Shown: positions 50,635 through 64,000 of the stretch, in pieces | Layout: every line of letters starts with the position of its first letter | Numbering within the stretch: the stretch's first letter is position 1 | From: Burkholderiales bacterium | GTDB taxonomy: Bacteria > Pseudomonadota > Gammaproteobacteria > Burkholderiales > JAHFRG01 | Assembly: GCA_035543335.1 (NCBI GenBank) | Contig: DASZZH010000025.1 | Span: 248,185 to 312,184, forward strand | Length of the DNA stretch: 64,000 nt | Direction: 5' to 3' | Position numbers and translations under genes: made by a program | The notes under the pieces: model-generated | Seen by the model: the letters and a program-made list of their open reading frames with translations, nothing else | Databases searched by the model: none | Told to the model about the DNA's origin: nothing

Positions 50635-51395
50635 CATTTTTTTGTTCCAGCGTTTTTTTCTTGAAGTAGCATCGCCTTGAGATAGCGGTAATACGCGCCT
50701 TCGGCATTGGAAACGGCGAGCAAGAAGCCTTCCCTGCCGTCGAGAAAGCCGGCGCGCAGCAAATAGGTGCGCACGAAAGTCCACAAGCCGTGAAGAACGG
50801 CTATCCCCAGCGAGGCTTTGCGTTGCTGCCTGAGAAGCATCATGGCGCCGGTCGTGGAATAGTCGTTGAGTTTTTGCAACACCTGTTCCAGATCGCGGAA
50901 CGCCTCGTGCAGCAAAGGTTGCTTGAGTGTGCCGGTTTTGCCGTTGACGATGAGCCGTTCATGCACCAGATCATCGCTGAAGCGGGCATGGCCGCGCTTG
51001 AACAGGCGGGTGATGTAATCCGGCCACCAGCCGGAGTGGCGCATGACTCGGCCGCAGTAACTGGAGGAACGCGCCATGCGGAATGCCACGTGTTCGCCCG
51101 GGGTAGTGATGGCCGATTGGATTTCTTGCCGCAATTCTGCCGATACACGCTCATCGGCATCAAACGACAGCACCCAGTCGCCGGTTGCCAGAGCCAGCGC
51201 GCGGTTTTTCTGCAGTCCAAAACCCGGCCAGTCCATGACCAGGACTTTTGCCCCCAGTTCTTTGCAAATAGCAACCGTGTTGTCGGTGCTGCCGGAGTCC
51301 ACCACGATGATTTCATCCGCCCACGACACCGCTTCCAGGCAGCCACGCATATTTTGCTCTTCGTTTTTGGTGATGATGATGACTGAAAGGCTCAT
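50634..51395 (-). CDS. Glycosyltransferase family 2 (LPS core WaaE/KdtX-like)
   Basis: A 253-residue GT2 protein: LSVIIITKNEEQNMRGCLEA, VDSGSTDNTVAICKELGAKV, the FDADERVS acidic motif, and SGWWPDYITRLFKRGHARF, which is characteristic of the WaaE/KdtX glucosyltransferase group. ATG 51395 overlaps the O-antigen ligase stop (ATGA); an open extension to 51587 is only shadow of that gene. It probably adds a sugar to the inner core. Confidence 0.9.
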   Translation of the reverse strand: MSLSVIIITKNEEQNMRGCLEAVSWADEIIVVDSGSTDNTVAICKELGAKVLVMDWPGFGLQKNRALALATGDWVLSFDADERVSAELRQEIQSAITTPGEHVAFRMARSSSYCGRVMRHSGWWPDYITRLFKRGHARFSDDLVHERLIVNGKTGTLKQPLLHEAFRDLEQVLQKLNDYSTTGAMMLLRQQRKASLGIAVLHGLWTFVRTYLLRAGFLDGREGFLLAVSNAEGAYYRYLKAMLLQEKNAGTKK

Positions 51396-52645
51396 GTTGG
51401 GGTGCCGCTCTTTTGCGAATTCGATTTCAATCCAGCGTAGAGCAGCCCGCTTATCCACCCATAAAGCAGGCCTTCGGTGTGGTCTAGGAGCAAAGAGTTG
51501 AAAAGGCAGCCGAACATTATTGCAAGAAGCAAAGCATGCGCGAGACTGCGCTCCAATGAGGTGGGCAGCGCGGCAGCCAAACGCCACTGGCGGTAGAATA
51601 AATAGAGTAAAAACCCCAAACCAAGCAGACCCAAATCGGTGGCGATGAGAAGATACTGATTGTGGGGATTGGTAGTCGGAAGCATGCCAGTGCCTTTTAT
51701 TTTTTCAGCATACGCCTTGGAAAATCCGCCGGTGCCAACACCGAAGACAGGGTGATCGCCGATGATCTCGAGGCTGTTTCTGTACCATTCCATGCGCAAA
51801 CCGACCGAGTTACCAACACTCGCTAATTGATCGGGGTGCCATTGGGATAACTCGCTCGCCGCTTTTGTGATTCGCGAGTGGAAAGTATCCGAACCCAAAT
51901 AGGCTCCGGTAAAAAGCAGGGTACCCAGCATTGCAGCCAGAGCCAGTCCTTTCCATTTCCACATGTCGAAGAAGAAATACACCACCAATAGCGCTAGAAT
52001 TAGATAGCCGGTGCGTCCCTGGACCATGAACAGAACGTTAAATACCGCCAGCATGGAGAAAATACTCCAGAGAATACGGATGCCGGTTCCGGATGCATGA
52101 CGGGCCATTTGTGCGAATAGAAACGCGGCGATCGCCATCAGGATATTATGAGTGATGGAGAGCTTAAAAGTGACCGGATTTAAAGGGTGGGGTAGGCCGG
52201 ACGTTTTGACTGACATAAAAAAATATTCGGGCAGCAGACCCATGCCAATCGCGTAAGAAAACAGCAGAGTCAGGATCAATGCCAGGGCAAATGCCCGCAA
52301 TCCACGGCGCCGTATCCGTTCGTCCTGAAAGCAGGGTATCAGCAGTGCGATGAGCAGCAGTTCTTTATACTTGCTGAGGTAACGCAGGTCATCCCACGGA
52401 TCACTCTCGCCGTAAAACAGCCCTAAGGCCAGCAGCCCAAACAGACCAAGTGACAGTAGCGCCAGCGGATTGTTTTTAATTTGCCGCCATTTCTCTTTAT
52501 AGTCGGCAGCCAATATCCAAAGGGCGACCAGCAGGCCTACCAGAATGCTGTCCAGCGCGGTGGAAACGGGAATGGTGAAGCCAAGCGCAACAGCGACCCA
52601 TTTGGTCAATGTGTCGGCCTTGCCGCTGATGATCCGGTATTCCAT
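51392..52645 (-). CDS. O-antigen ligase (WaaL-like, Wzy_C superfamily)
   Basis: A 417-residue polytopic protein with about ten hydrophobic segments. It has a large periplasmic loop (about residues 270-345) containing the conserved NPHNQYLLIATDLGLLGLGF motif of O-antigen ligases/polymerases. The ligase role is preferred over polymerase because a separate polymerase-like domain occurs in the gene at 61601-63997 and the neighbours here are core glycosyltransferases. Confidence 0.85.
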   Translation of the reverse strand: MEYRIISGKADTLTKWVAVALGFTIPVSTALDSILVGLLVALWILAADYKEKWRQIKNNPLALLSLGLFGLLALGLFYGESDPWDDLRYLSKYKELLLIALLIPCFQDERIRRRGLRAFALALILTLLFSYAIGMGLLPEYFFMSVKTSGLPHPLNPVTFKLSITHNILMAIAAFLFAQMARHASGTGIRILWSIFSMLAVFNVLFMVQGRTGYLILALLVVYFFFDMWKWKGLALAAMLGTLLFTGAYLGSDTFHSRITKAASELSQWHPDQLASVGNSVGLRMEWYRNSLEIIGDHPVFGVGTGGFSKAYAEKIKGTGMLPTTNPHNQYLLIATDLGLLGLGFLLYLFYRQWRLAAALPTSLERSLAHALLLAIMFGCLFNSLLLDHTEGLLYGWISGLLYAGLKSNSQKSGTPT

Positions 52646-53448: not shown

Positions 53449-55314
53449 CTACGCGAGTTTTTGCTGATAATTCCGGGCATCACTTTGTGCGGCGGCATAC
53501 TCCGGCACCCATTTGAGCAAATCCGCTTTTACCTGTTCGTCTCTTAAAGGCTGAGCCTGGTCGAGCCAAATCAGCGCGTCCGCGAGCCATTGCACATCCA
53601 TCTGTCTCGCGCGGGCAATGCGCAGCTTGGGATGCGGGGTCGGCAAGGTATTTTCATCGTTGGCCAGCAGCTCTTCATAGAGTTTTTCTCCCGGGCGCAA
53701 GCCGGTAAACACGATTTTGATTTCGTCTTCGCTGAAACCGGAAAGACGGATCAAATCTTTGGCGAGCTCGGCGATTTTCACCGGTTCGCCCATGTCCATG
53801 ACAAAAATTTCGCCGCCCTTTCCCATCAGGCCCGCCTGCAGCACCAGCTGCGCGGCTTCGGGAATGGACATGAAGTAACGAATGATTTCCGGATGCGTGA
53901 CGGTCACCGGCCCGCCTTTCTCGATCTGCTCGCGGAATTTGGGAATCACGCTGCCGGCGCTGCCCAGCACATTGCCGAAGCGCACCATCACAAAGCGCGT
54001 CGCCGAATCGGGCTGCAGCGCCTGGCAGATCATTTCCGCGAGCCGCTTGCTTGCGCCCATGACATTGGTGGGATTGACCGCCTTGTCGGTAGAAACCAGC
54101 ACAAATTTTTCCGCGTGGTGATTGGCTGCCGCATGCGACAAGACATAAGTTCCCAGGGCATTGTTAAGCACCGCCTCCCAGGCGTTTTGCGCTTCCATCA
54201 GCGGCACGTGTTTATAGGCGGCGGCGTGGAACACGATGGAAGGAAGGTATTGCGCCAGCACCTGGTCTACCCGCGAGCGGCTCTTCACATCGCCGATGAC
54301 GCAGACAACCGCGGTATCCGGAAAATCGCTTAGAAACTCCTGCTCAATGCGGTACAGCGCGAATTCGTTGAGTTCGAACAGCACCAACCGTTGCGGCTTG
54401 AACCGGGCGATCTGACGGCACAGTTCCGACCCGATCGAGCCGCCCGCGCCGCTGACCATGATGGTTTTGCCGGCAAACAGCTCCTTAAGTCCCGCGTTGT
54501 CCAGCACCACCGGATCGCGGCCCAGCAAATCGTCAAGCTCCACCTGGCGGATTTGCGAAACGGTGACTTTACCGCTCAGTAAATCGTCGAACGAAGGCAC
54601 GGTCAGGGCTTTCACTCCGGCATTCACACAGACACTCATCGCTCGGTGTCGCATCTCGTGTGCAACGGAAGGCATGGCGATGATGGCGTGCTGGATTTGC
54701 ATTTTTTGCGCGTGATCCGCGAGCTCGTCTATCCGCCCCAGCACTTTCACGCCGTGCAAAAGTCTGCCGTGCTTTTTGGGATTGTCATCCAGAAAGCCCA
54801 CCACCCGCCATTCGCGGCTGCGGGCGAGATCCTTGACCAGGCTCGCGGCGGCGTCGCCAGCACCGAGGACGATTACCGGCTTGGCTTGCAAGTTGGCAAG
54901 GCTATACAGCCGACGCTCTTTCCATAGCCGGTAGGCAATGCGGCTGCCGCACATGATGAGGAAAAGCAGTATCGGATCCAGCACCACCACCGAGCGCGGA
55001 ACCAAAGCCGGAATGCGCAACATCAAGAGCACAAGCGGAGCGGCCATTGCCGCCGACGCAACCGCAAGGAAGATGCGTTTCAGATCGGGTAGGCTGGCGT
55101 AGCGCCAGATGCCCCGGTAAAGGCCAAACCACAAAAAAATGAGCGCCTGCGACAGCATAACCCATGGCAGTGTCTGCCACATGCTTCGCAGTTGAGGATG
55201 CTCGAAATCCATGTTGAAGCGCAGCCAATAGGCGAGACACCACGCGAGAGCTACCGCGACCAGGTCGTGGCCAAAGGCAAGCGAAGCACGGAGATTAAAC
55301 CTAAGCGGAAACAT
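53449..55314 (-). CDS. wbpM: WbpM/PglF/CapD-like membrane NDP-sugar 4,6-dehydratase
   Basis: Converts UDP-GlcNAc to UDP-4-keto-6-deoxy-GlcNAc. The 621-residue protein has four N-terminal transmembrane helices (residues 1-130), a CoA-binding-like Rossmann domain (VIVLGAGDAAASLVKDLARS), and a C-terminal SDR domain with MVSGAGGSIGSELCRQIARF and STDKAVNPTNVMGASKRLAE. The catalytic tyrosine is replaced by methionine, as in WbpM. The start overlaps the wbpL-like stop by 14 bases. Confidence 0.93.
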   Translation of the reverse strand: MFPLRFNLRASLAFGHDLVAVALAWCLAYWLRFNMDFEHPQLRSMWQTLPWVMLSQALIFLWFGLYRGIWRYASLPDLKRIFLAVASAAMAAPLVLLMLRIPALVPRSVVVLDPILLFLIMCGSRIAYRLWKERRLYSLANLQAKPVIVLGAGDAAASLVKDLARSREWRVVGFLDDNPKKHGRLLHGVKVLGRIDELADHAQKMQIQHAIIAMPSVAHEMRHRAMSVCVNAGVKALTVPSFDDLLSGKVTVSQIRQVELDDLLGRDPVVLDNAGLKELFAGKTIMVSGAGGSIGSELCRQIARFKPQRLVLFELNEFALYRIEQEFLSDFPDTAVVCVIGDVKSRSRVDQVLAQYLPSIVFHAAAYKHVPLMEAQNAWEAVLNNALGTYVLSHAAANHHAEKFVLVSTDKAVNPTNVMGASKRLAEMICQALQPDSATRFVMVRFGNVLGSAGSVIPKFREQIEKGGPVTVTHPEIIRYFMSIPEAAQLVLQAGLMGKGGEIFVMDMGEPVKIAELAKDLIRLSGFSEDEIKIVFTGLRPGEKLYEELLANDENTLPTPHPKLRIARARQMDVQWLADALIWLDQAQPLRDEQVKADLLKWVPEYAAAQSDARNYQQKLA

Positions 55315-56287
55315 AGTTGCCGGAATGTCTTTTCCAGTACCGGTCGAAAATAATCATGCCGAGTGTGTAAGCCGCACTCCAGCCGGCAACCAAAATAATT
55401 TGAGTGAACTCATCTTTGCCGATAGCCCACAGGGCGGACAAACCGGTAGCGAGCATCAGAGCATATTCAAACCAGGCGGTTTTGCGATGTCCCCAGCCGA
55501 TTTGCACCAGCCGCTGGTAATAATGCTCGCGATGCGCCTGCCAGATTTTTTCCCGCTTCAGCGCGCGCTTTAGCAACGTGACGCTGGCATCAACAATAAA
55601 AGGCGAAAAAATCAGCAGCGGGAACCATATTGGCCAATTGTTTTGCAGATATCCGGTGATGCCCAGTGCCGCCGCCAGAAAGCCGAGCGGAATCGAACCT
55701 GCATCGCCCATGAAAATCCGCGCAGGATGAAAGTTGAACAACAAAAAAGCCAGCGCGGCGGCGGCAATCGAAAAATTAATCAAGGCAAAAGCTTCGTTGC
55801 CGGCAAGCCAGGAAGCCAGCCCGTAAAAGCCGAAGCCGAACACCGCCATCCCTCCCGCAAGCCCATCCGAGCCATCCATGAAATTATACAGGTTGGTCAT
55901 CCAGGCCGTGGCAAGAATGAACAGCGGCAGTAACAGAACGCCGCCTGCGTCTGACCACAATACTGCGGCGATGGCCGCAGCCAGGAAATGCGTCGGCAGC
56001 CGCCAGACCGGGGAGATGCCGTGGATATCGTCGAGCAGCGATATGGCGATTAACAGGGCCGGCGCGAGCCAGAGCGGCCATGGCGGCAATAACAAAATCC
56101 ACGCAATGAAGACGCCAGTCATCAATCCCAAGCCCCCGCTGCGCGGCACCGGCGTATTGTGCAAGGAACGCGGGTTCGGACGATCAAGCACAATTCGCGA
56201 CAGGCCGCCCTTGACCAGCCACCGCAGCACCACAAACGCCGCAACGAACGAGATGAGCGGCGTCAAATAAAGATGATCCATAGTCAT
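55301..56287 (-). CDS. WbpL/WecA-like polyisoprenyl-phosphate sugar-1-phosphate transferase
   Basis: Initiates O-antigen assembly by moving a sugar-1-phosphate from UDP to undecaprenyl phosphate. The 328-residue, roughly ten-helix protein has LDRPNPRSLHNTPVPRSGGL, the Asp pair SLLDDIHG, and NLYNFMDGSDGLAGGMAVFG with the cytoplasmic HIH-type region WQAHREHYYQRLVQ. ATG 56287 overlaps the epimerase stop by ATGA; ATG 56281 is also possible. Linkage to wbpM-like and epimerase genes suggests UDP-D-FucNAc or UDP-QuiNAc as donor. Confidence 0.92.
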   Translation of the reverse strand: MTMDHLYLTPLISFVAAFVVLRWLVKGGLSRIVLDRPNPRSLHNTPVPRSGGLGLMTGVFIAWILLLPPWPLWLAPALLIAISLLDDIHGISPVWRLPTHFLAAAIAAVLWSDAGGVLLLPLFILATAWMTNLYNFMDGSDGLAGGMAVFGFGFYGLASWLAGNEAFALINFSIAAAALAFLLFNFHPARIFMGDAGSIPLGFLAAALGITGYLQNNWPIWFPLLIFSPFIVDASVTLLKRALKREKIWQAHREHYYQRLVQIGWGHRKTAWFEYALMLATGLSALWAIGKDEFTQIILVAGWSAAYTLGMIIFDRYWKRHSGNYVSA

Positions 56288-57261
56288 GAGGCGGCCACCT
56301 CGGGATCGGAAAGAAACCATCGTGCGGTTTCCTCCAACCCCCGGGTTACCGGATAACGAGGCTTCCAGCCGAGCTCCTGGCAGATTTTCGAGGTATCCAC
56401 TTGCAGCGAGTCCAGCAAACTGACGGCCTCGTTGGATTTGCCGATGAGCCCCGCTCCTATGCGCAGCAGCGCCGGCGGCAAAGGCCACAACCGGGCCGGG
56501 CGGCCTAATGCGCGCGCGATCCGCACAATCAAATCAGGGCTGGAAACATCTTCGCTTTTGCTTAAGAGATAAGTTCCTCCCGCCGCTTGCGGATGAGTCA
56601 TGCAGGTTAATATGGCATCGACGAGGTTCCCAAGAAAAATGAGGCTCTTGCGGTTGTTTACCGAGGCGAGAGGAAGAGGGATACCCTTTGCGACGGCTTG
56701 CAGCAGACGCAGAAAATTTCCCTTTACGCCAGCCCCATAAACCAAGGGCGGCCGCAGAATCACCACTTCCAATCCTGTTTCGGCGGCAACGCGTTTGAGC
56801 GCCTGCTCCGCTTCCCATTTGGACACGGCATAAGCATCCTGAGGCGCCGGGGTATCCGCTTCGGTGAAAGGATGATCCACGCTTTCTTCACCGTTGATCT
56901 TCATTGTACTCAAGAAAACCCGGCGCTTCACTCCCGTTTGCGCTGCCATGCGCCCAAGCCGCTCGGTGGCGTGGGTGTTCACCTGGCGAAATTCCAAGAA
57001 GGAATCCTCGGCGGTTTCCTTCATGATGTGTACGCGTGCCGCCAAGTGCACGATGACGTCTATTCCATGTAACGCTGCTTGCCAATCGGTGCCGGGTCCG
57101 AGTGAGTCAACACTGCAGGGAGTGACGCCGAAAGGCAGGTTGGATACGTTTTGTGAGACGGAGCGAATCGTGCCCTTCACTTGCCAGCCGCCAACGAGCA
57201 ATTGCTTGCACGCGGCTTGGCCGATAAAGCCCGTCGCGCCGGTGATCAGGGCGGTAGGCAT
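56284..57261 (-). CDS. NAD-dependent epimerase/4-keto reductase (WbpV/WbpK/WbjF-like)
   Basis: A 325-residue extended SDR. It has the nucleotide motif ITGATGFIGQAACKQLLVGG, the catalytic YAVSKWEAEQAL (Tyr-x3-Lys), and RPPLVYGAGVKGNFLRLLQA. In Pseudomonas O-antigen loci, the enzyme encoded immediately before WbpL reduces UDP-4-keto-6-deoxy-GlcNAc, made by WbpM, to the initiating sugar. The same gene order here supports that role rather than a plain GalE. Confidence 0.88.
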   Translation of the reverse strand: MPTALITGATGFIGQAACKQLLVGGWQVKGTIRSVSQNVSNLPFGVTPCSVDSLGPGTDWQAALHGIDVIVHLAARVHIMKETAEDSFLEFRQVNTHATERLGRMAAQTGVKRRVFLSTMKINGEESVDHPFTEADTPAPQDAYAVSKWEAEQALKRVAAETGLEVVILRPPLVYGAGVKGNFLRLLQAVAKGIPLPLASVNNRKSLIFLGNLVDAILTCMTHPQAAGGTYLLSKSEDVSSPDLIVRIARALGRPARLWPLPPALLRIGAGLIGKSNEAVSLLDSLQVDTSKICQELGWKPRYPVTRGLEETARWFLSDPEVAAS

Positions 57262-57273
57262 CTCCCGGCTGGA

Positions 57274-58437
57274 TCATTTCCGCCACACGGTGCGGTTGAC
57301 GTAGCCCGTGTAGCTTAGGATGATGCGCAATACCTTTTTGGAAACGTTGTCTGCCTCGTAATCCTGAACCAGGCGGAACTGCCTGCCGGTCGCGGAATGA
57401 TGACGGGTCGCCACTTCGATGGCTTCAATAACATCGGCCGGTTTCAGCCCGCACATGATGAGAGTGCCTTCATCCATGCCCTCCGGCCGTTCATGGGCTT
57501 GGCGAATGATGACGGCGGGGAAATTCAGGATCGACGATTCTTCGGTGATGGTGCCGCTGTCTGAGAGGACGCAAAAGGCATTCATCTGCAATTTGATGTA
57601 GTCGAGGAATCCCAGTGGCTTGAGAAACCTCACGTCTTTGGGCTTTTTTGCTGAAGGCAGACTTTCGAGTTTTTTCATGGTGCGCGGGTGGGTGGAGACG
57701 ATAACGGGCAGGTTGTATGTACCGGAAACGGCGTTGAGCGTTTCCAGCAAATCCTTGAAGTTGGTCGCGCTGTCGATATTTTCCTCGCGGTGCGCGCTGA
57801 CCACGAAATATTTGCGTGGCTTTACTTTCAGCCGGGAAAGAACGGCGGATTTTTGAATTCGCGGCATATAGTGCTGCAGAATTTCTTTCATCGGCGAACC
57901 GGTTTTGATCACCATTTCAGGCTTTATTCCCTCTGCCAGGAGGTAGCGGCGCGCATGCTCGGTGTAAGGCAAGTTGATATCGCTGACATGATCGACAATT
58001 TTGCGGTTGATTTCCTCCGGCACGCGCTGATCGAAGCAGCGGTTTCCCGCCTCCATGTGGAAAATCGGAATCTTCAGCCGTTTCGCCGATATGGCCGCTA
58101 GGCAACTGTTGGTATCGCCGAGCAACAGCAAGGCATCAGGCTTTTCTTTGGCCATTACCTCGTGGGATTTGGCGATAACGTTGCCTATGGTATGAGCCGG
58201 GGATTTGCCGGCGCAGTCGAGGAAATAATCAGGTTTCCGGATTTGCAGTTGTTCGAAGAAAATAATGTTCAGCTCGTAATCGTAATTCTGGCCGGTGTGC
58301 ACCAGCACGTGCCGGGTATGACGGTCGAGTTCGGGGATCACCCGAGAAAGCTTGATGAGTTCGGGCCGAGTGCCAACGATGGTCATGACTTTAGTCGGCA
58401 TAGCCACTTTTGTCCTCATTGATCCTTGCGGCGTCAT
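57274..58437 (-). CDS. fnlC: FnlC/WbjD-like UDP-N-acetyl sugar 2-epimerase
   Basis: A non-hydrolysing 2-epimerase of the WecB superfamily, 387 residues from ATG 58437. Motifs are MTIVGTRPELIKLSRVIPEL, LVHTGQNYDYELN, GDTNSCLAA, HMEAGNRCFDQRVPEEINRK and SDSGTITEESSILNFPAVII. Sitting directly after fnlA and the fnlB-like gene, it likely performs the last step to UDP-L-FucNAc rather than making ManNAc. In-frame ATGs at 58419 and 58401 are alternative starts; the last would give the family-typical MPTKVMTIVGTRPE. Confidence 0.9.
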   Translation of the reverse strand: MTPQGSMRTKVAMPTKVMTIVGTRPELIKLSRVIPELDRHTRHVLVHTGQNYDYELNIIFFEQLQIRKPDYFLDCAGKSPAHTIGNVIAKSHEVMAKEKPDALLLLGDTNSCLAAISAKRLKIPIFHMEAGNRCFDQRVPEEINRKIVDHVSDINLPYTEHARRYLLAEGIKPEMVIKTGSPMKEILQHYMPRIQKSAVLSRLKVKPRKYFVVSAHREENIDSATNFKDLLETLNAVSGTYNLPVIVSTHPRTMKKLESLPSAKKPKDVRFLKPLGFLDYIKLQMNAFCVLSDSGTITEESSILNFPAVIIRQAHERPEGMDEGTLIMCGLKPADVIEAIEVATRHHSATGRQFRLVQDYEADNVSKKVLRIILSYTGYVNRTVWRK

Positions 58438-58447
58438 GATGCCGGCC

Positions 58448-59515
58448 TCAGCGCAGCAGTTCTACGCCGGTGGACAAATCGACATCTTCTATCATCAGGC
58501 GGTTTTTCTTCAGCAGCGCCATCGTGCTTGGCAAGTCCAGCACCGCATCAGCGGAACTGTACTCCTTGACGAGCGCATTGGGTTCCTTCGCGGCCTTATC
58601 GGAAAGCTCCGGTAGCATAGGGCGGATGGCGTAATAATCACCGCGCTTTACACAATGGTTCGCTTCTTCTTCGGAAACCATGATTTCGTGCATTTTCTCG
58701 CCGGGGCGGATGCCAATAACTTTTATTTCAATCTTGCGGTCGCCAATCAACGTCTTGGCGATGTTCATGACGGTGGCCGAAGGTGCGTCCGGAACATAGG
58801 TCTCCCCTCTCTTCGCCTCTTTCAATGCGGTAAATACGGTATTCACCGCCTGGTCGAGGCTTAACAGAAAGCGCGTCATGCCCGGCACCGTGATCGTCAC
58901 CGGCCCGCCGTTTCTAATCTGGCTGTGAAAAAGAGGAATGACTGAGCCGCGTGAGGCGAGCACGTTGCCATAGCGGACACAAATGAAACGGGTTCCGGGG
59001 TTGAGGATATTGGCGGAGGTGAAAATCCGCTCCTGCAGCGATTTGGTCATGCCCATGACGTTGACCGGCTTGCATGCCTTATCGGTGCTGATACCGATGA
59101 CAGTTTGCACGGGATAGCTGTTTTCCCCGATGGCGCGGACGATGTTGTAGGCGCCGATGCAATTGGTCATGATGGCCTGGGTTGGAAAATATTCGCATGT
59201 CGGCACTTGCTTGAGTGCCGCCGCGTTGACCACGATGTCGGCGCTTTTTACCGCCGAGCATACTTCATCATAGTTGCGCACATCCCCGATCCTGAACTCG
59301 AGGACATTTATAAAGTTGTTGTAAATGACCTCGTCGGTGGTGGCGGTTTTGTGCAGATACGACAGCCGCATCTCATGCTGCTTGGCCTCGTCCCTGGAAA
59401 AAACGATGACTTTTTTCGGCGTGCCCAGCTCGCCCGAGAGCGCGCGGTGCACGAAGGTTTTGCCCATCGAACCAGTGCCGCCGGTCACCAGAATGATTTT
59501 ATTTGCAAACATCAT
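58448..59515 (-). CDS. fnlA: FnlA/WbjB/CapE-like UDP-GlcNAc 4,6-dehydratase/5-epimerase
   Basis: First enzyme of the UDP-L-FucNAc pathway. The 355-residue soluble SDR has ILVTGGTGSMGKTFVHRALS, NAAALKQVPTCEYFP and GISTDKACKPVNVMGMTKSL, with the Met-x3-Lys variant of the active site. The C-terminal extension with KVIGIRPGEKMHEIMVSEEE is typical of CapE/WbjB. The start overlaps the preceding gene by ATGA. Confidence 0.93.
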   Translation of the reverse strand: MMFANKIILVTGGTGSMGKTFVHRALSGELGTPKKVIVFSRDEAKQHEMRLSYLHKTATTDEVIYNNFINVLEFRIGDVRNYDEVCSAVKSADIVVNAAALKQVPTCEYFPTQAIMTNCIGAYNIVRAIGENSYPVQTVIGISTDKACKPVNVMGMTKSLQERIFTSANILNPGTRFICVRYGNVLASRGSVIPLFHSQIRNGGPVTITVPGMTRFLLSLDQAVNTVFTALKEAKRGETYVPDAPSATVMNIAKTLIGDRKIEIKVIGIRPGEKMHEIMVSEEEANHCVKRGDYYAIRPMLPELSDKAAKEPNALVKEYSSADAVLDLPSTMALLKKNRLMIEDVDLSTGVELLR

Positions 59516-60378
59516 TTAGCTCTTCCCAAATAATCTTGTGCCAGCTCGTCTGTCATGACTTCCCAGCTTGGTGGATTATACTTAAATTCCGAGCGGAATT
59601 TCGTGGAATCAAGGCTGCGGTCGCACTTGAATTCCCCGTCGGGGATGATTTCAGTCTCCAGACGCATTTTCCTTTTAATCATCAGCAGCAAATCGTATTT
59701 GCTAATGGGCTCGCTGGAAACGTGGTAAAGCCCCGAGGCGCGGGGATAATCGGTTATGATTTTTTCCATGATGCGTGCCAGCTCCAGGGTTGTAAACCCC
59801 GAGAAAACGGCGTGGGTAAAACCGCGCACGGTGCCGCGCTGCGCCAGAAACCACTCGAGCAGGCCGGTTTTGTAAATGAGTTCTCTGCCGATAATCGAGG
59901 TGCGCAAGGTAAGGCAGTGTGGCTCATGTACTTCCCCCAGAAATTTGCTCCTGCCGTACAAATCCTCGGCGTCAGAAGCGTCGGATTCACGGTAACCGCC
60001 CTTTCTTCCCGAAAACACGCAATCGGTGCTCATGTGAATAAGCCTGGCCCCGACTTGCTCGCACAGCATGGCCAGCCGGTGCGGCAGCAGGGAATTGATT
60101 TCCAGGCTGGGGATGACTTCCTTTGCCTCCGTTCTTTGCTTGATAATGCCAGCGGCATTAACGATAACTTGAGGTTGGAAATCCTTTACCGCCTCGGCAA
60201 GCGGCTTGATTGAGCTGAGTTCGATTCCCGGATAGGCATTTTTTGCATTAAACAGCCCGAACGCCGAGTATTCGGTCCGCTTACCGCGCAAGGTCACGCA
60301 CGCATCGTGAGCATGCGACAGTTGTTTAAGCAACCGGTGGCCCAGCATGCCGGTCCCGCCCAAAATCAGGATACGCAT
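59512..60378 (-). CDS. RmlD-like SDR sugar reductase (FnlB/WbjC position)
   Basis: A 288-residue RmlD-superfamily reductase: MRILILGGTGMLGHRLLKQL, VIVNAAGIIKQRTEA, HMSTDCVFSGRKGGYRESDA and the catalytic LYGRSKFLGE. It is shorter than CapF/WbjC, which carry a C-terminal cupin that is absent here, so it resembles the single-domain reductase seen in other FucNAc loci. ATG 60378 overlaps the preceding glycosyltransferase by 13 bases. The role, reducing the 4-keto intermediate toward UDP-L-FucNAc, is inferred from neighbours. Confidence 0.85.
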   Translation of the reverse strand: MRILILGGTGMLGHRLLKQLSHAHDACVTLRGKRTEYSAFGLFNAKNAYPGIELSSIKPLAEAVKDFQPQVIVNAAGIIKQRTEAKEVIPSLEINSLLPHRLAMLCEQVGARLIHMSTDCVFSGRKGGYRESDASDAEDLYGRSKFLGEVHEPHCLTLRTSIIGRELIYKTGLLEWFLAQRGTVRGFTHAVFSGFTTLELARIMEKIITDYPRASGLYHVSSEPISKYDLLLMIKRKMRLETEIIPDGEFKCDRSLDSTKFRSEFKYNPPSWEVMTDELAQDYLGRAK

Positions 60379-61604
60379 TGTTTTGTCCCAGCCAGTTCCC
60401 GCATCCACTGTTCCAGACGATCCAGCAGGCGCTCGCGCTGGAAATTCATTTCAAAATACGTCCTGCCTTTTTCTCCCATTTCTTGTCTTTCCCTAGGGCT
60501 CATCCGGTAAAGCTTGAGAACCGCATCAGCTAGCCTTGTTGCATCTTCCGCTGGGCAGGAAAACCCCGCTCCGGAGTTCTCCACTACTCGCGCTGTTTCA
60601 CCGTCCGCTGCAGATATGATCGGTTTGGCACAAGCGAGGTAAGACTGCACTTTGCTCGGTACGGTTAGTGCGAATACAGGGTCGCGACGCAAGGTTACCA
60701 GCATGGCATCTGCAAGCGCAAAATAACGTGGCATGGTTTCTACAGGGCGGTGACCCAGTAAATGAACCTTATCTTCGAGTCTCAGTACATTAATTTGCTG
60801 CGCGACCCAATCTTTCTTGTGACCGTCTCCTAAAATCACCCAGTGAATGTCTTGATGATGTTTCAGTTTTTCCGCGGCCGCTAGGATGGTCTCGAACGAC
60901 TGAGCCGCGCCGATATTCCCCGCAAACATCACGCGGAATCCGTTGGGCATTTGTGTGCGCTCGGGCGCATCCTGTCCGGGAAGGAGCGGCTGGTAGAGCG
61001 TCTCCGCCCAATTGGGAAAATAGCGGACGCGTCTCGGTTCAACCTCCATTTTCAACACACGCGAAATAAAACCTTCCGACTGTACGAGAATCAACGCGCA
61101 GTGGCGATAGATAAACCGCACCAGTCTCGTCACCCAATTCAGAATGAACCTGGACTGCACCGCGCCCGTAGCTGACAGGCTTTCCGGCCACAAATCCTGC
61201 ACCCACAGGATAAGTGGCGCTCGTTTCAGCCATTTCAAAACGATTGCCGGCAGGCATACGGTGATCGGGGACGGTTCATACACGAAAATCAGCTCAAACC
61301 TGCCACGGCATAGAAACGGCCCGAACACGCTGGCGAAAAAAAAGAAGGAGAAATAATTCAATGCCAGACGCCAGCCTTGCCCTTTTCCTCTCGGAATCAG
61401 CGGCACCCTGTAAACTGGAACATCCTGAAATAATTCCTTGCTGCGCGAGAAAAAGCCGTAGCCCGGAAAAAAACGCCCCGAAGGATAATTGGGCATGCCG
61501 GTTAGCACCGCGACGTCATGCCCGCGATCTTTCATCCCCAGCACGAGATCATTAATTCGAAAGGTCTCGGGCCAGAAATACTGGGAGACAATAAGGATTT
61601 TCAC
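60366..61604 (-). CDS. wbuB: Glycosyltransferase family 4, WbuB-like (probable L-FucNAc transferase)
   Basis: A 412-residue GT-B enzyme. The N-domain begins MKILIVSQYFWPETFRINDL, with GHDVAVLTGMPNYPSGRF, as in WbuB. The C-domain has VMFAGNIGAAQSFETILAAA, VILGDGHKK and VPSKVQSYLACAKPIISA with the donor-binding glutamate region. Direct linkage to fnlA-B-C, as in E. coli O26, makes UDP-L-FucNAc the probable donor. It overlaps the wzx-wzy fusion stop by ATGA. Confidence 0.9.
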   Translation of the reverse strand: MKILIVSQYFWPETFRINDLVLGMKDRGHDVAVLTGMPNYPSGRFFPGYGFFSRSKELFQDVPVYRVPLIPRGKGQGWRLALNYFSFFFFASVFGPFLCRGRFELIFVYEPSPITVCLPAIVLKWLKRAPLILWVQDLWPESLSATGAVQSRFILNWVTRLVRFIYRHCALILVQSEGFISRVLKMEVEPRRVRYFPNWAETLYQPLLPGQDAPERTQMPNGFRVMFAGNIGAAQSFETILAAAEKLKHHQDIHWVILGDGHKKDWVAQQINVLRLEDKVHLLGHRPVETMPRYFALADAMLVTLRRDPVFALTVPSKVQSYLACAKPIISAADGETARVVENSGAGFSCPAEDATRLADAVLKLYRMSPRERQEMGEKGRTYFEMNFQRERLLDRLEQWMRELAGTKQCVS

Positions 61605-63997
61605 TTCGGCTGATAACTTTGATTGAAATCGGAGCGGCTATTTTGTGGCGGCGGCAGACGCAAAAGGCGGGAGAGCAGCACGCCCCACAGGAAAAAGGTA
61701 ACGATTCCGGAATAAGGTTGCCGCAGGCCGACTTTGAAAGAATTATCCACTATCAGCAAAAAAATGGTAACTGCAGTGAGCCCGAGCAAACTGGAAGAAC
61801 CAAGTATCTGGCGTCGGTTTCGGTATATCAAAACCAGTGTATAGCCAAGCGCGGCAAGTAAAGGAAGTAAAGCGATTGCCCCAAAGTTATAAGCCAAATC
61901 GAGATAGTAATTATGTGCACTGGGGAATTGGGCGCGCTCTAGTCTTTGGGCGTGACCAAAAAGAAAAACTTCAGGGCTGCTCACAATTTCTTTTCCGTAA
62001 TACCGCCAATAGTAAAGACGTTCAGTTAAATTGGGCACGATCTGCGATTCAACTTGTGAGGTAAGGCCAGATGTAAACCCCCATTTATAAGCAAGCATAT
62101 CTTTGCCATAGCTCAGGTACGTGCCGTATCCGGCCAAAACCATTATGCAGACGGCCAGGGATTTTTTATCGAAAGACCGCTTGCATTGCCATAGCACGAA
62201 ACCTGCAGTCCCGGCAGCGAGCGCGAACAATGTCAACATTGATAGAGAAGCGGCGGCGGCGTATATCCCCATCAAGGGCGCCAATACCAGCAGAAGCCTG
62301 CGATATGGTTTTGCATGCCAGAGGGAGTAGAGAGCCAGAAGGTAACAGCACGCGATAATGGCGGGCACGTATTGCAAATGCTGGTAGACGCTGAATGCGT
62401 AAAGATACGGGGTCAGGGAAACTTGCGATTGCAACCAACTCGCAAGGAGTTGCGCGGGAACGATGGCAGCAACGACATAAATAAAGGCTTTTTCCAGAGA
62501 GGCTTCGTGATTTTTACCAGGTTCAAAAAGCTGGCCCAAAACAAATGCGAACATGGGGAGGATGAATTGCACCAGGAGTATGAACTTCGGCTGCTCCTGC
62601 CCAGTCAGGCTTCCTGTGGAAATGATGGAGGACAGGACCATGAGGACGAACGTGAAAAATAGGAAGCTCAGGGATAATGAAGCCTGCCGATACCGGCCCA
62701 GAAGAACTATTCCACCAAAACATGCCAGTACAGAAACCGGGATTGGGAGCTTGCTTAATATGCCGCCCGAGTCGTAATACATGAAAGGGTCGCGGAACAC
62801 GCCGCCGCTTGCCAGGAAAAAAAGCGGAAATGCCAGCATGAAGGCAGTGGAAATCTTGACGGCTTTGTCCGATAGCGGCCATGTGCCACGGGAACTCAGC
62901 AACCCTTCGGCCTTGAAACTCAGGTAGAACCCGAGGGTCAGAATCGAGCTGACCAGATAAAGCGACATGAAGGACGAAAGGCCAAACGACCAGTACAAAA
63001 ACGGCACCGAGGCGATGATGAGAATATTGATCAGTACATCGGGTCCGAAAACGTTGTTGTCTTCGTCGTGTTGCAGCAACTTGAAACGAATGCGCTGTGC
63101 GTATGTCATCGCCGCGCTTCCCACCATGGACAGCCCCATTGCCCCCCAGAAGAAAGGTGTTTTAAACCAACTGAAGGGGGCTAGGTTTAAAAAGGAGCCG
63201 AACGACAATAACAACCCGACGATCAAGGCCGCCCATGAGGCATTTTTAAAAAGGACGGGAAGCCGGGAGACGCCGGTGCGGGCTTCGTGAAGTATGATGC
63301 TGGGGCCCAATGCATACACGAAAACTGTGCTCAGAAAGCCGCCAATGGCGAACGCCGTAAATAAATCTCCCGCGACAGCCTTGCCCACGATCAGGACGAT
63401 GAACAGCCGAAAAACATATACCGTGATCCCAATAATCGCGCTGGATCCGAAGTGCGGCAACATTTGTCGCCAGCCTTTCTGAAATGCCAACGGCGACTCT
63501 CCCGGTTTGGACACGAGCCGCCAGAAGGACAGCAGCGGCAGTAGCGCCCAGGCCAGAATCCCCAATAATGGCATGGGCGCTTCCGAAAGAGTCCAGCCCA
63601 ACGCCAGCACCAGCAACGCGGACTGGAGCAAGATAAACTTGACAGCGTAATTCCTGTCGTCGTCGCGCTCTCTTTCGGCCAGATGCAATTCGTTCAGCCA
63701 TTCGACGCAACGCCGCAGAATCAGGGCGGCGGCCAAGTTGGGTTCCACTTGACCCAATTGGCTCAAATAAAAGGAAGCACCGGCAAGAGGCAGAATTAAA
63801 AGCAGACGCATGGCAAGGATGGCTCTGACGCGGAAGCGCGAGGGCAGACTCAAAATCAGGCTTCTGGCGTTGCCGGAGAAGGCCAGAAACAAAGCGAGAG
63901 CGGCAGCCTGAGTAATCCCCACGTCCGCCGCCATTTGAGGTTTGCCCCCCAGCGTGAGTCCGATCATCAGCGCAGTCATTGCAAATGTCTGCAACAT
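61601..63997 (-). CDS. Wzx-like flippase fused to Wzy-like O-antigen polymerase
   Basis: A single uninterrupted frame of at least 798 residues. Residues 1-370 form a polytopic domain resembling oligosaccharide flippases (DVGITQAAALALFLAFSGNA, later GPSIILHEARTG and MVGSAAMTYAQRIRFKLL). Residues about 385-798 are another multi-helix domain with the O-antigen polymerase/ligase loop motif SAHNYYLDLAYNFGAIALLP followed by paired helices. Flippase and polymerase are normally separate genes. The ATG at 63997 is three bases from the window edge, and the flippase part seems to lack a first helix, so the gene may begin outside. Confidence 0.78.
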   Translation of the reverse strand: MLQTFAMTALMIGLTLGGKPQMAADVGITQAAALALFLAFSGNARSLILSLPSRFRVRAILAMRLLLILPLAGASFYLSQLGQVEPNLAAALILRRCVEWLNELHLAERERDDDRNYAVKFILLQSALLVLALGWTLSEAPMPLLGILAWALLPLLSFWRLVSKPGESPLAFQKGWRQMLPHFGSSAIIGITVYVFRLFIVLIVGKAVAGDLFTAFAIGGFLSTVFVYALGPSIILHEARTGVSRLPVLFKNASWAALIVGLLLSFGSFLNLAPFSWFKTPFFWGAMGLSMVGSAAMTYAQRIRFKLLQHDEDNNVFGPDVLINILIIASVPFLYWSFGLSSFMSLYLVSSILTLGFYLSFKAEGLLSSRGTWPLSDKAVKISTAFMLAFPLFFLASGGVFRDPFMYYDSGGILSKLPIPVSVLACFGGIVLLGRYRQASLSLSFLFFTFVLMVLSSIISTGSLTGQEQPKFILLVQFILPMFAFVLGQLFEPGKNHEASLEKAFIYVVAAIVPAQLLASWLQSQVSLTPYLYAFSVYQHLQYVPAIIACCYLLALYSLWHAKPYRRLLLVLAPLMGIYAAAASLSMLTLFALAAGTAGFVLWQCKRSFDKKSLAVCIMVLAGYGTYLSYGKDMLAYKWGFTSGLTSQVESQIVPNLTERLYYWRYYGKEIVSSPEVFLFGHAQRLERAQFPSAHNYYLDLAYNFGAIALLPLLAALGYTLVLIYRNRRQILGSSSLLGLTAVTIFLLIVDNSFKVGLRQPYSGIVTFFLWGVLLSRLLRLPPPQNSRSDFNQSYQPK

Positions 63998-64000
63998 GAA

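Follow-up and report, generated by a model that had tools for sequence, protein, structure and literature searches.

The window, a 64,000-nucleotide stretch of contig C25 from a Burkholderiales genome, carries at its edge a gene whose product joins a flippase-like half to a polymerase-like half in one polypeptide. Downstream of this fused gene follow genes for a GT4 enzyme, for FnlB-, FnlA- and FnlC-like proteins, for an epimerase, and for a WecA/WbpL-type enzyme and WbpM. The features are given below, with the folds of the two halves as predicted by a structure model.

61601–64000, minus strand: fused gene, 807 aa, with its ATG at window position 64024, outside the window
62882–63997, minus strand: N-half, predicted MOP-superfamily (Wzx/MurJ/MATE) fold with 12 transmembrane helices, model residues 1–372
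61604–62869, minus strand: C-half, predicted WaaL/Wzy/FtsW-type GT-C fold, model residues 377–798
61880–61921, minus strand: periplasmic-loop motif SAHNYYLDLAYNFG, residues 693–706
60366–61604, minus strand: GT4 glycosyltransferase, WbuB-like; a similar gene in 30 of 42 related loci
59512–60408, minus strand: RmlD-like reductase, FnlB-like; an FnlB-like gene in 34 of 42 related loci
58448–59515, minus strand: FnlA-like dehydratase/epimerase, assigned by homology and gene order
57274–58437, minus strand: UDP-GlcNAc 2-epimerase family, FnlC-like (PF02350, 2.9e-94); an FnlC-like gene in 29 of 42 loci
55301–56488, minus strand: WecA/WbpL-type initiating phosphoglycosyltransferase (PF00953)
53449–55314, minus strand: WbpM/CapD-like dehydratase (PF02719)
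51392–52645, minus strand: separate Wzy_C protein, 417 aa, candidate WaaL (O-antigen ligase; PF04932, 2.3e-22)

Sets of FnlA/B/C-like genes specify the pathway to a 2-acetamido-2,6-dideoxy-L-hexose of the L-FucNAc or L-QuiNAc type, and the Fnl-like neighbours of the fused gene thus point to an O-unit containing such a sugar.

The fused gene and the contig ends

Within the window, the frame of the fused gene (61601–63997, minus strand) comprises 798 codons, is open throughout and holds both halves. Nine further codons lie beyond the window edge, where the upstream sequence adds MNYLFPSAF in front and completes the protein, and the contig ends 506 bases beyond that edge. An initial annotation of this DNA had described a single polypeptide uninterrupted by a stop or frameshift, which is borne out, and had pointed to the sequence left of the putative start as the place to find the full flippase. 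Since the start codon is recovered there and 12 helices are modelled over residues 1–370, the flippase half of the window protein is not truncated. The proposed domain boundaries likewise hold in the model, in which residues 1–372 align to MOP flippases and residues 372–783 to WaaL, and the loop motif is found where it had been described.

Contigs C22 and C25 of the window genome both end in an IS3-like element (L005:1-200 and L004:12500-12691, respectively); the terminal inverted repeats of the two ends agree at 22 of 27 positions, and both have the 3-base flank GCC. The two contigs probably adjoin, although the join is unproven. Contig C22 carries a stand-alone paralogue of the C-half, P0003 (L005:2100-3539), which is 47% identical to the C-half in the window; it begins with residues similar to those that close the flippase half and may, as far as the sequence goes, be a truncated fused gene. 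A search for N-half remnants upstream of P0003 gave chance matches only. Across C22 and C25, these data suggest the order P0003, P2 (a membrane protein described below), IS3, fused gene, GT4, and FnlB-A-C. Two minor features were also seen. A 98-aa frame (L004:12206-12502) directly upstream of the fused gene overlaps its start codon; in one stretch it is similar to part of the adjacent GT4, and it has the look of degenerate gene remains. On the other contig, the segment L005:350-430, between the IS3 end and P2, looks like the 3' portion of a tRNA gene, by eye tRNA-Asn, and is perhaps an integration scar.

Relatives and distribution

The family was searched with a profile built from four fused proteins, including that of the window, and the stand-alone C-half copy of the window genome, all from one order. 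This search found 46 loci in named genomes, 41 of which hold both halves in one frame; the others are contig-edge pieces (L050, L057, L059), a stand-alone C-half (L055) and a broken frame (L040). The fused relatives, at least 41 loci in at least 40 genomes other than that of the window, are 30–50% identical and occur in beta- and gammaproteobacteria, Deltaproteobacteria, Elusimicrobia, Planctomycetes and Verrucomicrobia, with hosts including Methylophilaceae, Herbaspirillum, Hydrogenophaga, Denitromonas, many Pseudomonas and a Verrucomicrobiales bin. The fusion of both halves is, thus, real. It is true that the gene lies near a contig end with IS remnants, but an error of assembly or a frameshift joining two genes has a negligible probability, because 41 independent loci in other genomes carry the same architecture in an unbroken frame.

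A search of 369 genomes from the class with the N-half profile yielded matches in four, the window genome included, always within frames of 808–842 aa, and a stand-alone N-half homologue was not found. The C-half profile, run against the same genomes, returned these four again, together with P0003 and weak matches to other polymerase-like proteins. Relatives with the halves as separate genes, which the initial annotation would have taken as a sign of an assembly artefact, therefore exist for one half only: the N-half never stands alone in the 369 genomes, whereas stand-alone C-halves occur in the window genome and in Pseudomonas sp. PD9R. In the latter strain, the stand-alone C-half (L055:7950-9332) is remote from the cluster, and part of the N-half is present a second time (L052:7947-8408) directly ahead of the fused gene; in Pseudomonas mosselii SC006, the copy (L040:6701-9174) is spread over two frames, i.e., a frameshift or a pseudogene.

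Within the order, the fused gene is sporadic, being present in at most five of 300 genomes. Between the distance matrices of the two halves, the correlation is 0.84 (Mantel p 0.001). Both halves share 17 well-supported splits; four conflicting split pairs, all involving Pseudomonas and Planctomycetes members, may stem from local recombination. Given congruent halves and a shared frame, the simplest reading is a single ancient fusion, after which both halves spread together. Searches of phage, plasmid and viral-contig collections with the fused protein gave no matches and, thus, no sign of carriage by phages or plasmids. Across phyla, the N-halves have a mean pairwise identity of 43%, as against 17% for 14 stand-alone Wzx proteins from the same genomes, a contrast that is only indicative, as the N-halves were selected by homology.

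In some lineages, further domains are attached. An N-terminal extension together with a loop insert is present in P0006 (L045:7110-10823) and at L047 and L048, the extension of P0006 being a GT2 domain according to Pfam. Behind the C-half, the same GT4 domain is found in L041:7803-11549 and L057:2-2419, both from Elusimicrobia.

The two halves: flippase, polymerase or ligase

Sequence comparison places the window protein in no known class: it matched no Pfam or NCBIfam profile and gave a single, spurious match in the PDB, and neither it nor any of the 41 members matched the flippase profiles PF01943 and PF13440. An hhalign comparison of the N-half with the 14 stand-alone Wzx proteins was not significant (P = 0.068), although the stretch that aligned sits at the beginning of the second lobe on either side. 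An AlphaFold2 model of the fused protein built from 42 sequences (pLDDT 88.8, pTM 0.91), whose high pTM is read as a confident predicted placement of the two halves relative to each other, has 12 helices over residues 1–370 forming a complete two-lobe MOP fold. VIA-align of residues 1–372 returned the MATE structure 6fhz (Z 23.1), WzxE 9g9n (Z 20.7, rmsd 4.1, 358 residues aligned) and MurJ 6nc6 (Z 20.5); Foldseek named the same structures at weak E-values (0.02–0.4), and it is therefore the structural aligner that carries the fold assignment. On this model, the N-half can with great confidence be predicted to adopt the MOP fold; it is filed as MOP by fold only, not as a PF01943 or PF13440 member. 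The missing match to flippase profiles, regarded in the initial annotation as speaking against a flippase, is hence a fact at the sequence level, but is outweighed by the MOP fold match in structure alignment.

Flippase activity of the N-half is, in our judgement, quite likely. Eight charged residues of the N-half, namely R54, R73, R104, E108, E112, E119, R206 and D329, do not vary among 41 sequences. WzxE has conserved charged residues in its lumen, among them arginine pairs and D262 (PMC11706664), for which R54, R73, R104, R206 and D329 would be candidate counterparts. With mean top-residue frequencies of 0.55 and 0.53, the N-half is conserved like the C-half, and such conservation with invariant charged residues argues that it is no decaying remnant. 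These features, together with the full 12-helix fold, also make it very improbable that the N-half is a flippase fold which no longer flips and merely anchors or regulates the polymerase, a reading for which one may adduce the missing profile match, the separate Wzx kept in some genomes, and the stand-alone C-half copy P0003 in the window genome. The even number of helices would leave the C-half oriented like a separate Wzy.

For the C-half (residues 372–783), the closest solved fold is WaaL 7tpg (Z 21.7, rmsd 4.6, 335 residues aligned), followed by FtsW (Z 11.6), and the model combines a GT-C fold with a long C-terminal periplasmic loop, as in Wzy. Pfam Wzy_C is matched by eight of the 41 family members, at best with 4.9e-9, though not by the window protein itself. 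Residues Q486, Y552, D709 and R768 are invariant in the 41 sequences; His704 of the loop is kept in 35, and the other six have L, R, Q or Y in its place. The histidine of O-ligases has been described as acceptor-activating (PMC10920833), and the loop histidine of the window protein would be its counterpart.

The nearest structure being a ligase, the fused protein might be a flippase-ligase, whose WaaL- or oligosaccharyltransferase-like C-half transfers the polymer or the O-unit, with another protein making the polymer. A candidate for the latter is P2, a 485-aa polytopic membrane protein encoded beside the fused gene in some 25 loci, about half of the clusters, and in 19 of 30 whole genomes. 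Examples, which contain the motif DRWVGxEGVMAVSS, are the following:

L005:610-2097: P2 of the window genome (contig C22)
L014:10370-11791: P2
L016:10796-12268: P2
L038:10549-12003: P2

P2 is 43–59% identical between loci, and its only close homologue among 300 genomes of the order is that of the window genome, which has the fused gene. No Pfam or NCBIfam profile matched P2; its model (pLDDT 84.9) has a long loop near the C-terminus, with FtsW as the nearest PDB fold (weak, Z 9.3), giving no clear family, and a search of a viral structure library returned nothing. By its model, P2 may be another polymerase. Moreover, a Wzz gene (PF02706) was not found near the fused genes of 30 genomes, nor anywhere in 11 of these, the window genome among them.

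Several points, however, render a flippase-ligase unlikely. Solved Wzy structures are scarce, so that WaaL would be expected as the best match even for a Wzy; the loop histidine, if equivalent to that of WaaL, is not invariant; and clusters without P2 would be left without a polymerase. Furthermore, the WaaL role in the window genome appears to be filled by the 417-aa Wzy_C protein, which adjoins genes of the LPS core (GT2 enzymes, a GT9 heptosyltransferase and an MsbA-like ABC transporter), is represented by relatives in 106 of the 300 genomes from the order, and is 72% identical within the genus; it is, thus, the better WaaL candidate. A core-linked, widely conserved gene is the pattern expected of WaaL, and it applies to the 417-aa protein and not to the fused gene, which has the sugar-specific cluster and the sporadic, serotype-like occurrence expected of Wzy. 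On these grounds, together with the variable histidine, polymerase activity is favoured for the C-half and considered probable. Of the initial claim of a Wzx-like and a Wzy-like domain in one chain, the flippase fold and the Wzy/WaaL-type GT-C fold stand by structure and conservation; that the C-half is a polymerase, and not a ligase or a side-chain transferase, is probable but falls short of proof, given P2 in many clusters and another Wzx in some.

The presence of other flippases bears on a further reading, according to which the main polymer is the product of a separate Wzx together with P2, the fused protein being a second flip-and-transfer module that flips another lipid-linked sugar unit and adds a branch or cap. 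About ten of 30 genomes have a separate PF01943 flippase on the contig of the fused gene, 4–16 kb away, and Wzx, P2 and the fused gene occur together in several clusters (Methylophilaceae bacterium 11, several Pseudomonas). Yet, eight of the 30 genomes, including that of the window, are without any PF01943 flippase, and many loci lack P2, so that this reading cannot hold family-wide; overall, we regard it as quite unlikely. In the window genome, neither a PF01943 nor a PF13440 flippase was found elsewhere; in most of the genomes without PF01943, the PF13440 matches look like MurJ by length and profile range, with the exception of a 445-aa frame in genome G323. In minimal clusters consisting of the fused gene, WecA and WbpM, for instance L034 and L046, no other Wzx-like gene is seen within flanks of about 8 kb.

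Proposed mechanism and significance

The reading we prefer, and hold to be somewhat better than evenly supported, is that of a Wzx-like flippase (MOP fold) for lipid-linked oligosaccharides, naturally fused to a polymerase with the Wzy/WaaL GT-C fold. At the cytoplasmic leaflet, the N-half would pick up the undecaprenyl-PP-linked O-unit, including its 2-acetamido-2,6-dideoxy-L-hexose, and present it at the periplasmic leaflet, where the C-half would transfer the growing chain onto the newly flipped unit; the separate WaaL (51392–52645) would then move the chain to lipid A-core. Flipping and chain extension would proceed side by side within one molecule and may, thus, be coupled. What the analysis demonstrates is the single frame, its broad conservation, the two modelled folds and the surrounding genes; the activities of both halves, the hand-off between them, and polymerase over ligase are what we infer. 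More tentatively, the protein could be a self-contained flip-and-polymerise enzyme, in which the O-unit passes from the MOP half to the GT-C half without Wzz and to which, in some lineages, the last cytoplasmic GT2 or GT4 is also attached, making a three-step assembly line in one polypeptide.

Each half is of a known kind; it is their permanent combination that is new, and no report of a Wzx-Wzy fusion was found among open-licence papers. With Wzx flippases (WzxE, PDB 9g9n; in the MOP superfamily with MurJ and MATE), the fused protein has in common the 12-helix two-lobe fold and the location in a polysaccharide gene cluster; in contrast to these, its N-half is shorter (about 379 versus roughly 416 aa), has no detectable profile similarity and invariably continues in frame into a GT-C half. 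Polymerases of the Wzy type, i.e., bacterial polysaccharide polymerases with Wzy_C, belong to CAZy clan GT-C1 (PMC10920833); common to them and the fused protein are the GT-C fold, the long C-terminal periplasmic loop, the HNxxL...G motif and, in the eight members mentioned, Wzy_C, while the N-terminal flippase half, the absence of a Pfam or NCBIfam class and of a nearby Wzz gene set the fused protein apart. From WaaL (PDB 7tpg), it differs in its sporadic occurrence, its tie to sugar-specific genes, its variable loop histidine, and the presence of another WaaL candidate in the same genome. A Wzx-Wzy-Wzz multiprotein complex has been proposed, argued from genetics as cited in PMC10030265; as in that proposal, flippase and polymerase would act together, but here they are covalently joined, with no Wzz nearby.

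The family appears to be unnamed in Pfam and NCBIfam, and annotation pipelines, thus, probably miss such polymerases and flippases. Cooperation between Wzx and Wzy is hard to study, as the partners are separate membrane proteins. The natural fusion would fix flippase and polymerase at 1:1 in a predicted arrangement and offer one purifiable target for structure determination and for flipping and polymerisation assays, and the three-domain proteins, with their added GT2 or GT4, indicate in which order neighbouring assembly steps may follow one another.
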